Assembly (NCBI GenBank): GCA_021295755.1
Contig: JAGWBT010000028.1
Location: forward strand, 4,414-53,607
From: Candidatus Poribacteria bacterium
GTDB lineage: Bacteria > Poribacteria > WGA-4E > PCPOR2b
Length of the DNA: 49,194 bases
Direction: 5' to 3'
The first letter of the stretch is position 1. Every line of letters starts with the position of its first letter. The position numbers and the translations under genes are program-made. Below are positions 7,260 through 45,186 of this stretch, in pieces. The notes beneath the pieces were generated by a model. It did not search any database, was not told the origin of the DNA, and saw nothing but the letters and a program-made list of their open reading frames with translations.

Positions 7260-8924
7260 TTATCCTTTATTCATCAACGCTTCAGCAACAATCAGATCTT
7301 CCGGCGTCGTGATCTTCAGATTGTCATAGCTTCCCATGACACACTTCACTTTGAAACCCAGTTGCTCAACCAGCGCTGCGTCATCGGTCAACTGGATCTG
7401 ATCTCGCTGGGCATGTCGGTGGGCTTCGATCAACAAATCCTTCCGAAACACCTGCGGTGTCTGTACCGCCCAAAGTTGGTTCCGATCCGGTGTATCGACG
7501 ACAAATCCGTCCCTATCCGTGATTTTGATGGTATCCTTGACAGGGACTCCGGCGACTGCTGCTCCGGAATCTGCTGCCGCTTCGAGACAGGTAAAAATCA
7601 TGTCATCGGTCACAAAAGGGCGGACCCCATCATGAACGACGACGAAATCCGTATCCTCCGGGAGCGCCTTCAACCCGTTAAAGACAGAATCTTGCCGTGT
7701 TTCGCCACCGGGGATAAGCCGAGCAATCTTTTGGAAGTCGTACGGCTCGATTACCGCAGATCGGCAGGCGTCGAAATCCATTTCACCCACAATCACAAAG
7801 ATCGCGTCGACAACAGGGCTCTGATCAAATACGCCGATCGTATGCGCAAGGATCGGCTTGTCAAGAAGCTCTAAGTACGGCTTCTTAGTACGATGACGAC
7901 CCATCCGGTTTCCGCGGCCAGCTGCGGGAATAAGAACGCACGTCCTCTGGTTCATCAGTGTCCATTTCATCAGTCTTCGTACGCGTAACAATGTTTGGGT
8001 GACAATCGCATCGATTGTCTGTCCAACATATTGCCTACCATACTCAACAATGACCATTGTCCCGTCATCAAGATAGCCAACACCTTGGTTCGGTTCTTTA
8101 CCTTCGCGAAGAACACGTACCTGAATAACCTCACCGGCAACGACGACCGGACGAACGGAATTCGCAAGCTCGTTGATGTTGAGCACAGTCACACCCTGAA
8201 GTTCAGCGACCTTATTCAAGTTAAAATCATTGGTAATGATTTTCGCACCAATCTCTTGAGCGAGATGGATTAACTTGGCGTCCACTTCTGGAACTTCGGG
8301 AAAATCTTCCTCTGTTACCTCAACATCGATGTCAGGATTGTTTTGCATCAAACGTAAAATCTCGAAGCCACGTCGTCCTTTGTTGCGACGAAGTAGATCG
8401 GAAGAATCCGCGATGTGTTGTAATTCATTTAAGACAAATCGGGGAATTACAAACACGCCATCAATAAATCCTGTTTGGCAAATATCCAAAATCCGTCCAT
8501 CAATAATCACACTCGTATCCAAGACCTTAATTGTTGGAGACTTGGATTGTATACCGTGTGTTGTGAGGGAAAATAGCGCAAACGCATCTCGCCTGCGATA
8601 GACAATCATTGTCCCTGCATAAGCGCATGAAAGCACAATGCCCCCTGTCAGTGCTAGGCTAATTGCGCCGGTTGTTGCTCGAATAATATAAATGATAAGA
8701 CCGGCCACAATCAAACCGAATGTCAGTCCAGCGAAGCAGGCGAAAAAATCCCGTAGTAGCGGGCGCGGAATTGAGAATTCAATTCCTACCAGAATGATAG
8801 TAGCAAGAAAACCGATAGCGCCTCCTGTGATATCACCGGTAGCACCTCCTGTGGCATCACCGATGATAAATCCCAACGCTGCACCAAACAATGTAAAAGC
8901 AATGCGGATAATCCAAATTTGCAC
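7260..8924 (-). CDS. ispD: Fusion of YacL-like membrane PIN-TRAM protein and MEP cytidylyltransferase IspD
   Basis: One open frame encodes two normally separate proteins. Residues 1 to about 110 carry four hydrophobic segments rich in Gly, as in YacL. A PIN nuclease domain follows (V-L-D-T-S-V-I-I-D-G-R-I, then I-I-T-N-D-F-N-L-N-K) and then a TRAM domain (residues about 255-320). After a short linker, IspD begins at N-Q-R-T-C-V-L-I-P-A-A-G-R-G-N-R-M-G. It continues with the CTP-binding G-G-E-T-R-Q-D-S-V, V-V-H-D-G-V-R-P and T-P-Q-V-F, ending with I-T-T-P-E-D-L. IspD transfers CMP to methylerythritol phosphate. A TTG at 8975 is possible, but the GTG at 8924 with AGGGGG 8 nt upstream gives the normal YacL N-terminus (554 residues). 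A frame-restoring sequencing error or a true gene fusion are both possible at about 7955-8005. Confidence 0.88.
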   Translation of the reverse strand: MQIWIIRIAFTLFGAALGFIIGDATGGATGDITGGAIGFLATIILVGIEFSIPRPLLRDFFACFAGLTFGLIVAGLIIYIIRATTGAISLALTGGIVLSCAYAGTMIVYRRRDAFALFSLTTHGIQSKSPTIKVLDTSVIIDGRILDICQTGFIDGVFVIPRFVLNELQHIADSSDLLRRNKGRRGFEILRLMQNNPDIDVEVTEEDFPEVPEVDAKLIHLAQEIGAKIITNDFNLNKVAELQGVTVLNINELANSVRPVVVAGEVIQVRVLREGKEPNQGVGYLDDGTMVIVEYGRQYVGQTIDAIVTQTLLRVRRLMKWTLMNQRTCVLIPAAGRGNRMGRHRTKKPYLELLDKPILAHTIGVFDQSPVVDAIFVIVGEMDFDACRSAVIEPYDFQKIARLIPGGETRQDSVFNGLKALPEDTDFVVVHDGVRPFVTDDMIFTCLEAAADSGAAVAGVPVKDTIKITDRDGFVVDTPDRNQLWAVQTPQVFRKDLLIEAHRHAQRDQIQLTDDAALVEQLGFKVKCVMGSYDNLKITTPEDLIVAEALMNKG

Positions 8925-9007
8925 CCGAGCCACCCCCTTTCTTGTAATAGTACACTTAGTACGTGGATAACTCAAAAATTACATTGATGCTTCGCATCAC
9001 CCCTTTC

Positions 9008-38082: not shown

Positions 38083-39975
38083 GTGAATAAGAGTGCGAAA
38101 AGTATTGTGGTTTGGTTGATTATGGCGTCATTTGTTGCCTATGCCATGTACCACTTTTTAAGTTCAGGTAAGGAAAAGGTACATCAGCTTGCGGCATCGG
38201 AATTTTATGCCTATCTGCGACAACCAAATAGCAAGGACCTATTTGAAGGAAAAATCGAAATCGGTAAAGAGTGGATCAAAGGAAAATTCAAGGATCCACA
38301 GCCCATTCTAGATCTGGATGAAATGCGTGGAGGTAGAGGAGAACCAGCAACGTTTCAGGAATTTCGGACCAGTCGTGATATTTACTCTGAATACCCACTT
38401 CAAGAAAAACTTGTTGAGTACCAAATTCCATTTGATAACGAACGTTCATCGGCTGTTCCCCAGTGGATTGTAATCTTCGGTTCGACAATCTTGCCGATCT
38501 TGCTCTTCCTAGGGATCATGATCTTCATTTCAAGGCAGATGCAAGGCACAGGTAATCGAGCGTTATCGTTTGGAAAAAGCCGCGCTCGGCTTCATTCTGA
38601 AAGCGAATCGAAAATTACCTTTGCCAATGTCGCTGGCTGCGATGAGGCGAAAGAAGGGCTAGAAGAAGTAATCCAGTTCCTGAAAGATCCGAAGAAATTT
38701 CAGCGACTCGGTGGACGTATTCCAAAAGGGGTTCTGTTGATGGGACCGCCGGGCACCGGAAAAACCTTACTTGCGCGTGCTGTCGCCGGGGAAGCTAATG
38801 TCCCATTCTACAGTATCAGCGGATCCGATTTCGTTGAAATGTTTGTAGGGGTCGGTGCTTCCCGGGTTCGGGATCTGTTTGAGACGGGAAAGAAGAATGC
38901 ACCCTGCATCATCTTTATTGACGAACTAGATGCCGTTGGACGACATCGTGGCGCAGGCATCGGTGGTGGGCATGATGAGCGCGAACAGACCTTAAACCAG
39001 CTTCTCGTGGAGATGGATGGATTCGATACTTCCGAGGGTGTGATTCTCATTGCTGCAACAAACCGCCCCGATGTGTTAGATCCGGCGCTCCTCCGACCGG
39101 GACGTTTTGATCGCCAAATTGTCGTTGACCTCCCTGATGTCAAAGGGCGTGAAGATATTTTCAAAGTCCATACAGCGAACATTGAAACGGACCCAGATGT
39201 GGACTTGGAGAGACTCGCGAAGGCGACCCCCTACTTTTCGGGGGCAGACATCGAGAATATGGTGAACGAAGCCGCTTTGCTTGCAGCCAAAGAGGACAAA
39301 GATTCTGTTGAAATGATTTTCTTTGATGAGGCCAAAGACCGTGTACTGATGGGACCCGAACGTCGTAGCCTCATTATTAGTGATGATGATAGACGGGTCA
39401 CCGCATACCATGAGGCAGGACATGCCTTATTGCGACACGTTATTCCCGAAAATGACCCGAACTATAAAGCCACCATTATTCCTCGTGGGCGATCGCTCGG
39501 TGTTTCAGTGGCGCTTCCGATTCAAGAACGTCGTAACTTCAACAAAAAATATCTCCTTGGCAGTATTACCACCGCGCTCGGTGGACGCGTTGCCGAAGAA
39601 CTCATCTTTGGTGAATTGACCACGGGGGCGCAGAACGACTTTGAACAAGCAACCGATATTGCCCGTAAGATGGTTACGCAATGGGGCATGAGCGATCTTG
39701 GACCGCTCTCCTTCGGACGACGTGAAGAGCAGGTTTTTTTGGGCAAAGAGATCGCGCATCACCAAGATTATAGCGACAAGACAGCCATTGAAATTGATGA
39801 AGCTGTCCATGGCATTGTTATGGAGTGCTATAATAGGGCGAGAAACCTCATTGAAACGCACCTTGATGGGTTGAAGAAGCTAGCTGATGAGTTGCTCGAA
39901 CGCGAAACACTCATCACAGAAGATATTGAAGAGATACTTGGGCCCCGTCCTCAACTTTCTCCGATTGCATCATGA
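38083..39975 (+). CDS. ftsH: ATP-dependent zinc metalloprotease FtsH
   Basis: FtsH is a hexameric membrane protease for quality control and regulated turnover. The 630-residue product has two transmembrane helices (about 7-25 and 125-147) flanking a short periplasmic domain. The AAA module has Walker A G-P-P-G-T-G-K-T, Walker B I-I-F-I-D-E-L-D, and the second-region-of-homology arginines in R-P-G-R-F-D-R. The zinc protease has H-E-A-G-H at 443-447. The length is normal. GAGG lies 9 nt before the GTG start. folP overlaps its stop by 4 nt (ATGA). A promoter follows the tnpB remnant. Confidence 0.98.
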
Positions 39976-40805
39976 ATTGTCGAGGAAAATCGATTACTTT
40001 CGGGGAACGTACATGGATCATGGGCATCCTCAACGTCACCCCGGATTCCTTCTCTGACGGTGGTCGCTATCTCGATACCAACCGCGCGATTGCCTACGCC
40101 CACCAGATGATCGAAGATGGTGCGGACATTATCGACATCGGCGGCGAATCTTCTCGCCCGGGAGCCTTACCTGTCTCCACAGATGAAGAGTTAGCCCGTG
40201 TCCTACCCGTGATTGAAGCCCTTGCAAACGGAACGGAAGCACTGCTTTCGATTGACACCTATAAACCCATTGTTGCACGTAGTGCGCTTCAAGCAGGCGC
40301 ACATATTGTCAACGATATTACGGCGCTAAGTGACGCAGATATGGCGGGAGTTGTTATGGAGATGGGCGCTGGGTTGATTCTCATGCACATGAAAGGCGTT
40401 CCCCGCACAATGCAGCGCTCGCCGGTGTATAGCGATCTAATCCCTGAGGTCTTGACTTTTCTCCGACAACGGATTGATAAAGCGCAAGCAGAGGGAGTTT
40501 GTCCCGGTCGGATTATGATTGATCCCGGTATCGGATTTGGTAAAACCGCCGAACATAATCTGGAGATTTTACGCTGTCTCGATGCGTTTCAGAGCCTAGA
40601 TAAGCCCATCCTTATTGGTACTTCCAGAAAATCATTCATTGGCAAGATTCTTAATCTGCCCAATCCGGATGATCGGGTGGAAGGCACCGCTGCGACGGTC
40701 GCGTGGGCGATTGCCCACGGTGCAGATGTCGTTCGCGTCCACGATGTAAAGGCAATGTGTCAAATTGCCCAAATGACAGATGCGATTCATCGTCGAACAG
40801 ATTAA
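39972..40805 (+). CDS. folP: Dihydropteroate synthase
   Basis: FolP joins pABA to dihydropterin diphosphate in folate synthesis and is the sulfonamide target. The 277-residue product has the pterin-binding signatures I-M-G-I-L-N-V-T-P-D-S-F-S-D-G-G and D-I-G-G-E-S-S-R-P-G. M-I-D-P-G-I-G-F-G-K and G-T-S-R-K-S-F-I-G follow, with a C-terminal R-V-H-D-V. All are typical and complete. The ATG overlaps the ftsH stop (ATGA), so the two are translationally coupled; the ftsH-folP pairing is widespread. Confidence 0.97.
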   Translation: MNCRGKSITFGERTWIMGILNVTPDSFSDGGRYLDTNRAIAYAHQMIEDGADIIDIGGESSRPGALPVSTDEELARVLPVIEALANGTEALLSIDTYKPIVARSALQAGAHIVNDITALSDADMAGVVMEMGAGLILMHMKGVPRTMQRSPVYSDLIPEVLTFLRQRIDKAQAEGVCPGRIMIDPGIGFGKTAEHNLEILRCLDAFQSLDKPILIGTSRKSFIGKILNLPNPDDRVEGTAATVAWAIAHGADVVRVHDVKAMCQIAQMTDAIHRRTD

Positions 40806-40956: not shown

Positions 40957-42114
40957 ATGAATAAAAGCCAATCGTACGACTTTTCACGTTTCGCGTCTTA
41001 CGCAATACATGACTTCGCAGTCGTGCTTATCACACTGTTACTTCTCTTCGGTGGGACAAATCTCGCCTCAGCCCAAGCCGTCAACGAAGAGTTTCACGCA
41101 TCAACAAATACGTTCCTCAGAAGGCTTGCATCAGCAAAACACCTGAGGCTGGGGGATAACTCTGTCAGTTCAATTTCGGGGACAAATGCCCTTAACAGCA
41201 ATCCTGCCGGACTTAGTTTCATCAATAGTAACCGTCTCGTCACAAACATTTCACGATTTCCGCGCACTGTTGCCATCATCACAAAATTGAACGATCTTGA
41301 ACGATACGAGGATCACAATCAATACGCGCTTCGCGCATCAGGACTTGAGGTTATAAACTACAGCAAGCCTTTGGATGCCGCAGGAGGCTTTGGGTTCGAT
41401 TTCGCGGTCGGACATGAAGGACGATTCAGCCGCGTTAATCACCTTGGAAAAGCGACGAACAGTTTCCCTGAGACTGACTTTGCGGTTGGAGTCAGTTATG
41501 CAGTTAAACTGTTTCGAGGATTCGCTATCGGTGCTGATGCCAGATGGCTGCGATCTAAAGTACAGGATGCCGAGAACAATCGGCATATCGGACACGGTTA
41601 CGCTTATAATTTAGGACTAATCCAGCAATTAGGCGAATCCCTGCGCATCGGTGCCGTGATTAGAAACTTGAGTAACGGATTATCATTCACTGATAACTCT
41701 ATTCCCGATAGGATTCGCCGAGATGTCCTTCTGGGCGGGAGTTATCAATTCCATTATAGAAATGTAGATATCCAGATTGGTTTGGATCTGAACCCACCCT
41801 TTGAGGATGGTGTCCGAACCAACTTTGGTGGAACTGTCTGGTATCGTGATTTCATCGGTGGACGGATAGGTTATCTGCGTCACATCGAAAAACGATTCGG
41901 CTCGGTCCTCAGTCTCGAAACTGGGCAAGTTGAGTTCGAGGATAGACTCTGGAAGACTGAAGGACTGACATTGGGTCTTGGCCTGCAGATTAGCGGGATT
42001 TATATAAACGTAGCCTATACACCGCAGATTCGGCCGACGGGAAATGACGGGGAGCAGGTCCGCATCGAAAATGGTAAATCGGTGTATTCATTTTCAATTG
42101 AGCAGCGTTATTGA
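40957..42114 (+). CDS. Outer-membrane barrel-like protein (PorV/UPF0164-like)
   Basis: The 385-residue product has a signal peptide (hydrophobic F-A-V-V-L-I-T-L-L-L-L-F, cleavage near A-S-A/Q-A). The rest is a series of short amphipathic beta-strands with N-P-A-G-L early on. This is the motif of PorV/PorQ-type and UPF0164 barrels that pass proteins or hydrophobic substrates across the outer membrane. The C-terminus ends in the aromatic pattern F-S-I-E-Q-R-Y. The ATG at 40957 sits in an ATGA overlap with a tiny open frame that I do not accept as a gene. The first codons after the start (F-S-R-F-A-S-Y-A) lie in the dispersed TTTCACG repeat. Confidence 0.75.
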   Translation: MNKSQSYDFSRFASYAIHDFAVVLITLLLLFGGTNLASAQAVNEEFHASTNTFLRRLASAKHLRLGDNSVSSISGTNALNSNPAGLSFINSNRLVTNISRFPRTVAIITKLNDLERYEDHNQYALRASGLEVINYSKPLDAAGGFGFDFAVGHEGRFSRVNHLGKATNSFPETDFAVGVSYAVKLFRGFAIGADARWLRSKVQDAENNRHIGHGYAYNLGLIQQLGESLRIGAVIRNLSNGLSFTDNSIPDRIRRDVLLGGSYQFHYRNVDIQIGLDLNPPFEDGVRTNFGGTVWYRDFIGGRIGYLRHIEKRFGSVLSLETGQVEFEDRLWKTEGLTLGLGLQISGIYINVAYTPQIRPTGNDGEQVRIENGKSVYSFSIEQRY

Positions 42115-42246
42115 GGAAAAGTAAAGAAAGAGGCATCTAAGCGGTGACAAACGAGAGATACGACAGCACTAAGATGATGGATTAACCTCCACCAACCACG
42201 GATGCTCTGTCGTATTACGCCCCACGTTTCGCATATCACAACCACT

Positions 42247-42861
42247 ATGTCAGACGAATACAAAACGATCGTTGGGATGGCGGAATCAAAGCTGGTTGTC
42301 AAGAAATCCCGCTTTTTTGGGCTTGTCACATCAGTTGATACGATACAGAGATCTAAAAGATTTCTGGCACTCGTCCAAGAGAAATATCCCAACGCCTCAC
42401 ACTACTGCTGCGCATACAGTATCGGATGGGGGCGCGAAAAGCGCGAATATGCTACTGATGCCGGTGAGCCGAGAAAGTCCGCAGGTCCCCCGATTTTAGC
42501 AGCGCTAACCGCGTCTCAACTCTCAAATGTTGTCTGCATCGTCGTCCGTTACTACGGCGGCATCAATCTTGGCGTCGGTGGACTTATTCGGGCTTATGGT
42601 CGATGTGCGAGGGAATGTTTAGCGAGCGCAAAAATTGAAACTCAGATTTTTTATAAGACACTACAGGTGAGGACACCTTATGAACAGATTGGTTCGGTCC
42701 TCAAACTGTGCAGCAGATTAGGAGGAAAGGTGATTAACGTCGAATATGATCAACATGCAACCGTACATCTGCAGATTCGTCAACGGGAAGTTGAAAACTT
42801 TCAAGAGAATCTGCGAGGAATCAACGCTGATATTGACGTGATTGATCCTGTAACTGTATAA
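42247..42861 (+). CDS. YigZ / IMPACT-family protein
   Basis: The 204-residue product has the UPF0029/IMPACT domain: K-K-S-R-F-F-G, the D-A-G-E-P turn, G-P-P-I-L, and the strand V-V-R-Y-Y-G-G-I-N-L-G-V-G-G-L-I-R-A-Y. The C-terminal 60 residues form the ferredoxin-like DUF1949 portion. An open frame extends upstream to 42202, but the ATG at 42247 (M-S-D-E-Y-K-T) fits the family start. The region upstream contains another copy of the TTACG/TTTCGC repeat. Function in bacteria is not settled; the family is linked to translation in eukaryotes. Confidence 0.9.
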   Translation: MSDEYKTIVGMAESKLVVKKSRFFGLVTSVDTIQRSKRFLALVQEKYPNASHYCCAYSIGWGREKREYATDAGEPRKSAGPPILAALTASQLSNVVCIVVRYYGGINLGVGGLIRAYGRCARECLASAKIETQIFYKTLQVRTPYEQIGSVLKLCSRLGGKVINVEYDQHATVHLQIRQREVENFQENLRGINADIDVIDPVTV

Positions 42862-42917
42862 TCTATTGGTATTGAATCTTGAGTGTGTAGACATTAAGCA
42901 ATACAGGAGGAATAATC

Positions 42918-43352
42918 TTGAACGAGGTAAAAAAATTCACAACTACACATGAATGGGTTGAAGTTGGAGAGAACGACGGGGTCGTTGGGATCACCGAGCG
43001 CATCCAACTAGAGTATGGTGATATTATCTTTGTTGAGCTGCCCACAGTTGGCGATGAATATGAACAGGATGAGCCGCTAGGCAGAGTAGAAGTGACTGAT
43101 GGTAATACTTTTCCTATCCATGCACCAGCAACCGGAGAGATTAAAGAAATCAACACCACGCTGGATGAGGATCCGGATCTAATTAATCATTCGCCTGAGG
43201 GGGATGGCTGGATCTGTCGGATAAGCATCGAGAGTCCCAGGGAGCTTGATGTATTGATGGATGTCGATGCGTACACTGACTATGAGGAAGAAGAACTCGA
43301 CGATGAATACATGGATGAGGAAGATTTTTACGACGAGGATGAGGCTTATTAA
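42918..43352 (+). CDS. GcvH-like protein lacking the lipoyl-lysine, with acidic tail
   Basis: The 144-residue product starts at a TTG with AGGAGGA 6 nt upstream. Residues 1 to about 110 resemble glycine-cleavage H protein: T-T-H-E-W-V-E, V-G-I-T-E-R-I-Q-L-E-Y-G-D-I-I-F-V-E-L-P, and A-P-A-T-G-E-I-K-E-I-N. But the lipoylation segment E-S-V-K-A of true H proteins is E-V-T-D-G (58-62), with a one-residue insertion before A-P, and there is no Lys in it. The last 30 residues (115-144) contain 18 Asp/Glu. So it cannot carry lipoate at the usual site, and its role is unknown. gcvT and gcvP are not in the window. Confidence 0.85.
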   Translation: MNEVKKFTTTHEWVEVGENDGVVGITERIQLEYGDIIFVELPTVGDEYEQDEPLGRVEVTDGNTFPIHAPATGEIKEINTTLDEDPDLINHSPEGDGWICRISIESPRELDVLMDVDAYTDYEEEELDDEYMDEEDFYDEDEAY

Positions 43353-43440: not shown

Positions 43441-45186
43441 ATGTCATTAGTCAGATTGGACCAAGTCACAAAATCGTATGACCCTTACCTCATTCTGGAC
43501 GAAGTCTCTTTGTCAATTGAACATGGCGATCGGATTGGATTGATTGGAAAGAACGGAACTGGTAAAACTACGCTCATAGAAATTGTTGCCGGTATAATCG
43601 AGGATTTCAAAGGGAACATTGGGTACGCGAAACGACTACAAATCGGGTATCTGAGCCAAGAGCCCAATTTGGAAGCCGATTGCTCACTCCGGCAAGAGAT
43701 GTTCAAAGTCTTTCAGAAGCGGCGAGACCTCGAAGATGAGATGCTGCTGCTCAGTGAAGAGATGGTAGAAGATCCAAATCTGCTAGATAGATATGCCCGG
43801 TTGCAAGAACAGCACGAACGCATGGGTGGCTACGACTATGAGTATCAAACAAATCGAACACTGGGCGGATTAGGATTTCGTGACAGCGATTTTAATTTGA
43901 AGACTGGTGTCTTGAGCGGCGGACAGAAAAGTCGTGCCGCGCTCGCAAAATTGCTGCTCGAAGATCCCGATCTGTTGTTGCTGGACGAACCTACTAACCA
44001 TCTGGACATCAAAGCGATTGAATGGTTGGAAAACTTCCTGAATACCGAATATCAAGGGGCAGTCATCATCGTCTCACATGATCGCTACTTTTTGGATCGC
44101 GTTGCCCGTAAGATTATCGAGTTACGAAACCACAAGCTCACGGAGTACCCCGGAAACTACACCAAATATCTCGAAATCAGACAAACTGAAAAAATAGCGC
44201 AGGAACGTGAATATAAAAAGCAAAAACGGTATATCGCTCATGAAGAGGACTTTATCCGTCGCAATATGGCTGGGCAACGCACACGGGAGGCACAAGGACG
44301 GCAAAAGTTGCTCGACCGTCTTGAACGCGTGGAGAAACCAGAGACCGATGAGAAAACAATCAAACTCCGTTTCACGCCGGATGTACGGGGTGGAAACGAC
44401 ATCTTGCAGTGTCAGGGTTTGGGAAAGCGATATGGCGATAAGCAGATCTTTGAGGACATGAATATGGAAATCTATCGTCAGGATGTTGTCGGTGTCATCG
44501 GTCCCAACGGCGTTGGAAAAACCACACTGTTCCGAATGATGCTCGGAAACGAACTGCCGACTTCAGGGAAGTTGAAGGTTGGGCACAATCTCCATTTTGG
44601 GTATTACGACCAAGAGCTTGTCGGGCTAAACCAAGACAACACAATTATTGATGAGATTTGGGCGTTGCGTCCGACACAAAAACAGGGCGAGATTCGCAGT
44701 TTTCTCGGACGGTTCCTGTTCTCTGATGATGAGGTCTTCAAATGGATTGGCGACCTCAGCGGCGGCGAACAGAGCCGCGTCATGCTCGCCAAGCTGCTCC
44801 TCGAAAATGCAAATGTGCTCCTACTTGATGAACCGACAAATCACCTAGACATACCGTCGCGTGAAGTCCTTGAGGAGGCATTGGCAGCATATCCGGCAAC
44901 CATTTTTATGATCTCTCATGACCGTTATTTTCTGAACAGTCTCGTCAACAAACTGCTGATCTTTGAGAACGGAACGGCGAATCTATTTTTCGGAACTTAC
45001 GCCGAGTATGAAGCCCACGTTCGAGAGCAAAAGCGGCAAGCGATGCAAGCAAAAGAGGAAGCCGAGAAGGCAAAAAAGGTAGAGCGGCAGGAAAAACAGC
45101 GGAGGGAGAGGTTGCGAGTTGCTTCAACTTCAAAGAAATCGAAAAAGAAACGGCGGGTGAAAGCACAGCGGGTGGCTGATGTGTGA
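43441..45186 (+). CDS. ABC-F family ATPase
   Basis: ABC-F proteins lack membrane domains and act mostly on ribosomes or translation. The 581-residue product has two ABC modules. The first has G-K-N-G-T-G-K-T-T, L-S-G-G-Q-K-S-R and L-L-L-D-E-P-T-N-H-L-D. The second has G-P-N-G-V-G-K-T-T, L-S-G-G-E-Q-S-R and the same D-E-P-T-N-H-L-D. The linker between them (about 235-310) is charged and fits a P-site tRNA-interaction motif. The C-terminal 55 residues are a basic coiled coil (K-E-E-A-E-K-A-K-K, R-R-E-R-L, K-K-S-K-K-K-R-R), more Uup-like than EttA-like. Which subfamily it belongs to cannot be settled by eye. Confidence 0.92.
   Translation: MSLVRLDQVTKSYDPYLILDEVSLSIEHGDRIGLIGKNGTGKTTLIEIVAGIIEDFKGNIGYAKRLQIGYLSQEPNLEADCSLRQEMFKVFQKRRDLEDEMLLLSEEMVEDPNLLDRYARLQEQHERMGGYDYEYQTNRTLGGLGFRDSDFNLKTGVLSGGQKSRAALAKLLLEDPDLLLLDEPTNHLDIKAIEWLENFLNTEYQGAVIIVSHDRYFLDRVARKIIELRNHKLTEYPGNYTKYLEIRQTEKIAQEREYKKQKRYIAHEEDFIRRNMAGQRTREAQGRQKLLDRLERVEKPETDEKTIKLRFTPDVRGGNDILQCQGLGKRYGDKQIFEDMNMEIYRQDVVGVIGPNGVGKTTLFRMMLGNELPTSGKLKVGHNLHFGYYDQELVGLNQDNTIIDEIWALRPTQKQGEIRSFLGRFLFSDDEVFKWIGDLSGGEQSRVMLAKLLLENANVLLLDEPTNHLDIPSREVLEEALAAYPATIFMISHDRYFLNSLVNKLLIFENGTANLFFGTYAEYEAHVREQKRQAMQAKEEAEKAKKVERQEKQRRERLRVASTSKKSKKKRRVKAQRVADV

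Follow-up and report, generated by a model that had tools for sequence, protein, structure and literature searches.

A lysine-less relative of the glycine-cleavage H-protein with an acidic, aromatic-ended tail in Poribacteria

H-proteins are regarded as lipoate carriers; their relative GcvH-L, found in a sirtuin operon, is likewise lipoylated. In the E. coli H-protein, the lipoate arm is contacted by Ser-67, Asp-68 and Tyr-70, located just behind the lipoyl lysine (PMC7733448). In the literature we consulted, H-protein relatives with non-glycine roles keep lipoate, as does LbpA, which works through the bound cofactor (PMC6067878). The eukaryotic protein Simiate/Abitram (FAM206A) is described as about 20% identical to the H-protein, from which it is proposed to descend; it reportedly binds actin and is reported absent from bacteria and archaea (PMC3859600, PMC3986562). 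Here we describe how an uncultured phylum keeps an H-protein version that is unable to carry lipoate at the known site. Our literature search, which was not exhaustive, did not turn up an account of any bacterial GcvH family lacking the lysine.

The gene and its predicted protein

The gene lies on the plus strand at 42918..43352 of the window, the whole stretch of 49,194 nucleotides from Candidatus Poribacteria that was analysed. It encodes 144 amino acids from a TTG start, and an AGGAGG ribosome-binding site recognized from the sequence (42905..42910, plus strand) precedes the start by 7 nt. The sequence-only reading had called this site strong and the gene not obviously decaying; the open frame and the low dN/dS values given below agree with the latter. 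A TTGACG-18-TATAAT match at 42833-42862 was considered as a promoter of its own and rejected, since such matches are no commoner in the sequence than in shuffles. Scans of the window against Rfam and for tRNAs gave no matches.

The proposed full-length homology to GcvH is borne out. Pfam GCV_H matches with 100.2 bits (E 9e-29, cut-off 22.2) over residues 6-125, spanning the full core. The protein nevertheless stays below the cut-offs of two NCBIfam gcvH models (109.1 vs 117 and 100.7 vs 115.85) and far from those of TIGR03077 not_gcvH (55.1 vs 144.05) and NF045810 GcvH_rel_desulf (23.5 vs 150). Its best sequence matches among solved structures are Thermotoga (T. maritima) H-proteins with E 2e-27. 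An AlphaFold2 model has a mean pLDDT of 88.4, with 109 of the 144 residues at 90 or above. The superposition on H-protein that had been suggested as a check gives H-proteins as the best Foldseek matches, with target TM-scores of 0.91-0.95 for the first seven and, among the best hits, an rmsd to the model of 1.0-2.7 Å. The input alignment of the model includes H-proteins, and the modelled protein is in this sense compatible with the H-protein fold, which is not independent evidence for it.

Two features depart from this scaffold. The lipoyl motif ESVKA is replaced by EVTDG at residues 58-62 (43089..43103, plus strand, assigned by alignment), where D61 (43098-43100) occupies the canonical lipoyl-lysine position. 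The alignment agrees with the earlier claim that no lysine falls in the loop and adds a one-residue insertion, residue 64 (43107..43109), that canonical H-proteins do not have. The second feature is an acidic C-terminal extension, residues 120-144 (43275..43349, plus strand). A helix is modelled at 116-131, followed by a distal tail of low confidence (pLDDT ~50) with Tyr as last residue. As previously counted, 18 of the 30 residues 115-144 are Asp or Glu, and the computed pI of the whole protein is 4.05. Homology annotation could label such a protein glycine cleavage protein H, and a GCV_H match alone calls for caution against inferring glycine cleavage.

Genomic context and independence from lipoate genes

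GCV_H occurs twice in this genome. The lysine-less copy lies on the contig studied here (C28). A canonical copy with ESVKAAF lies on contig C3, between gcvT, which immediately precedes it, and the P-protein gene. A conventional H-protein gene beside gcvT/gcvP, for which a genome search had been proposed, is present besides the lysine-less one. The same pairing is found across the order, where almost every genome carries two GCV_H copies, one scoring high and one lower, and the lysine-less copy is kept in nearly every Poribacteria genome examined.

This pairing, together with the preservation of most of the H-fold, speaks for a regulator or decoy of glycine cleavage or lipoylation, in which a dead H-protein would occupy GcvT, GcvP, LipA or a ligase and tune their activity. 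Most genomes with the lysine-less protein indeed also have a canonical gcvH. Against this stand three genomes, G060, G065 and G067 (95, 91 and 95% complete), in which the lysine-less protein is the only GCV_H protein. Searches of these genomes for GDC-P, for LipA over the cut-off, for an LplA/LipB-family ligase and for a 2-oxoacid-dehydrogenase E2 acyltransferase found none of them, with the lipoate search limited to the families named here and with the provision that absence from incomplete genomes is not proof. Incompleteness is an unlikely cause because the absence is shared by three genomes; GDC-P is found in G062-G064, from the same family as G065 and G067. The lysine-less protein is independent of glycine cleavage and of the lipoate genes searched. 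In none of the loci examined does its gene lie beside gcv genes. With the gene kept where none of the supposed partners is found, a regulator or decoy is unlikely.

The lysine-less gene has no genomic link to gcvT/gcvP in the present genome, and its context is ftsH-folP-PorV-yigZ, all on the plus strand. The ftsH gene (38083..39975) and folP, encoding dihydropteroate synthase (39972..40805), are conserved neighbours in families f1-f4 and f7. They are followed by a gene for a PorV/PorQ-family outer-membrane protein (40957..42114; 84.4 bits, just under the cut-off of 90) and by a YigZ/IMPACT-family gene (42202..42861), which in relatives is usually directly upstream of the lysine-less gene. The order ftsH-folP-PorV-(yigZ)-lysine-less gene is found in most loci of the order, in f7 without yigZ. 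PorV-yigZ precedes the lysine-less gene in f8 and f10, and yigZ does so in f9; the full context was not seen in f5, f6 and f9. In most relatives the gene on the 3' side is on the opposite strand. Here, an ABC-F ATPase gene of the ribosomal protection-like type, above its NCBIfam cut-off, lies directly downstream (window 43441-45186). A link to this gene was rejected, as such a gene is found downstream in only 7 relative loci. Elsewhere in the window, at 7260-8975, a 571-aa ORF combines a membrane/PIN-TRAM-like start with an IspD-like end, as judged by eye, and is possibly a fusion.

A PorV-family gene recurs in f1-f4, f7, f8 and f10, either next to the lysine-less gene or separated from it by one gene. 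This and the high acidity of the protein would suit a chaperone of the PorV-family outer-membrane protein or of secreted proteins, or a factor that targets them, with the acidic tail shielding a basic client. Against this, in f5 the lysine-less gene has no PorV-family neighbour in the stretch read, and G046 and G069 contain ftsH-folP-PorV-yigZ without the lysine-less gene. G016 keeps the same block, and no GCV_H was found in it. Loss of the gene has occurred in one genus and in at least one further genome, and its absence from these three intact blocks indicates that it is dispensable in some lineages. Other apparent absences are of a different kind: the contig of G007 stops at yigZ, and G004 and G033 also lack FolP, which makes an assembly gap likely there. 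The gene order itself may be inherited rather than functional, and we regard the chaperone role as improbable. In G069 we also noted folP and a neighbouring ORF twice in tandem (L248:9347-12000).

Loop, tail and selection in the family

The relatives were compared in an alignment of 65 lower-scoring GCV_H copies from 10 families. It consists of the copies from 53 genomes of the order, the present one, and 11 from other families in the class and phylum. A lysine at the lipoyl position is absent from all 65 and present in all 35 canonical poribacterial copies. The hairpin glycine G62 is conserved in 64/65, and the residue before it is D, T, E or S. Behind this position, the canonical Asp/Glu in second place after the lysine corresponds, by alignment, mostly to Tyr or Pro (residue 66), and the canonical Tyr mostly to Tyr or His (residue 68).

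The tight conservation of scaffold and hairpin glycine could be taken to mean that the protein is still a carrier, with its group on another residue. Such a substitute lysine was sought and rejected. None is invariant among the 65 copies, and the two most frequent, K6 (85%) and K101 (80%), are otherwise mostly Arg. No single nucleophile is kept at the lipoyl position either, because the residue there varies among Asp, Thr, Glu and Ser. With the gene also kept in genomes without detected lipoate ligases, we consider continued carrier function very improbable. Lipoylation at the known site is impossible in the lysine-less family, which has no fixed link to glycine cleavage.

The acidic tail is as constant as the lysine loss, and relatives were found to keep both. 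It is present in 65/65 copies, where Tyr119 is followed by 17-31 residues, 55% of them acidic on average, compared to 7-11 residues at this position in canonical copies; a recurring form in the order is, for example, EEYLPETDFYENIEDY. The chain ends in Tyr or Phe in 59/65 lysine-less copies compared to 0/30 canonical ones, and 63/65 have at least three acidic residues among the six before the last residue. F137 is aromatic in almost all copies. This, together with the strong codon-level selection on the tail, argues that it is not a chance run.

For most pairs dN/dS is about 0.02-0.16, in core and tail alike, with dS saturated in some; purifying selection acts on both parts. In a tree of 83 proteins, built without loop and tail columns from a short alignment that leaves the inner forks unsure, the lysine-less poribacterial proteins fall on one side of a branch with support 100/99 and the canonical poribacterial copies on another branch (98/86). 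That the gene is a gcvH duplicate in decay or altered by chance, or the product of a sequencing error, was rejected. Nothing beyond the missing lysine speaks for it, and it has a negligible chance of being correct, given the same loss in all 54 copies from the order and all 11 from other families, the open frame, dN/dS far below 1 and the single clade. We propose that the protein would be an old paralogue of the H-protein of glycine cleavage, one that stopped attaching lipoate early in Poribacteria and may have been retained for its fold.

Outside the clade, the lipoyl lysine is kept in 40 of 41 matches among the best 80 of a contig-collection scan with two short peptide patterns, from which restriction to Poribacteria is not to be read. 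On a Deltaproteobacteria contig (tree label Myxococcota), a GcvH above the NCBIfam cut-off (L145:2003-2395) has IEAEGMLS in place of IESVKAAS and no lysine. Genome G068 encodes two longer GCV_H-domain ORFs of 254 and 289 aa (L226 and L228), in which Asp or His is seen by eye at the lysine position; the N-terminus of L226 is hydrophobic. A plasmid search with the lysine-less gene gave only matches below 60% identity, and the named ones are gcvH.

Proposed role and comparison with known systems

The lysine-less protein probably has a different, non-carrier job. This follows from its phylum-wide retention, purifying selection on a single clade, the lack of an invariant alternative lysine and its persistence in genomes where the searches for glycine-cleavage and lipoate genes found none, and it is in line with the repurposed lipoyl-domain fold first suggested, with a binding or scaffold protein as an example. 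From these observations we infer a small cytoplasmic binding or adaptor role with docking through the tail. For the protein studied here, the reading we favor and consider reasonably likely is a repurposed, non-lipoylated H-fold that would serve in binding or as an adaptor and would dock through its acidic tail. More tentatively, and a little short of even confidence, the same could hold for a phylum-wide lipoate-independent H-fold family with a docking or adaptor role, in which the acidic, aromatic-ended tail would be the working part.

In such an adaptor, the H-fold core would recognize one partner, and a second partner would receive the docking acidic helix and tail, with the C-terminal Tyr/Phe, in a basic or hydrophobic pocket. 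A resembling case would be SSB, whose acidic C-terminal tip is disordered and aromatic-ended and docks to many partners. First partner candidates would be the products of the neighbouring genes, namely the PorV-family protein, YigZ, FtsH and FolP. The question of a cofactor-free H-fold function becomes testable.

Compared to SSB, the likeness is restricted to the acidic, aromatic-ended tail. It is a resemblance for which we claim no homology, as the folds are unrelated and our model matches the H-protein fold and not the OB-fold ssDNA-binding domain. The comparison with Simiate/Abitram is by published description only. Two further systems are H-protein relatives outside glycine cleavage. The GcvH-L of SirTM/macrodomain operons (PDB 5a35; PMC4518038) shares the H-fold; the poribacterial protein differs in lacking the lysine, and we noted no sirtuin gene near it. 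The LbpA lipoate-binding proteins of Hdr-like sulfur oxidation (PMC6067878) share a non-glycine role, and here again the difference is the missing attachment lysine at the known site. The comparison also includes GcvH itself (PF01597, TIGR00527, NF002270), with full-length homology, the predicted fold and the core motifs THEW, GIT, P-x-x-GE and DGW, among others. From GcvH, the poribacterial protein is set apart by the absent lipoyl lysine, the one-residue loop insertion, the longer stretch after Tyr119, scores under both curated gcvH cut-offs and a gene position away from gcvT/gcvP.
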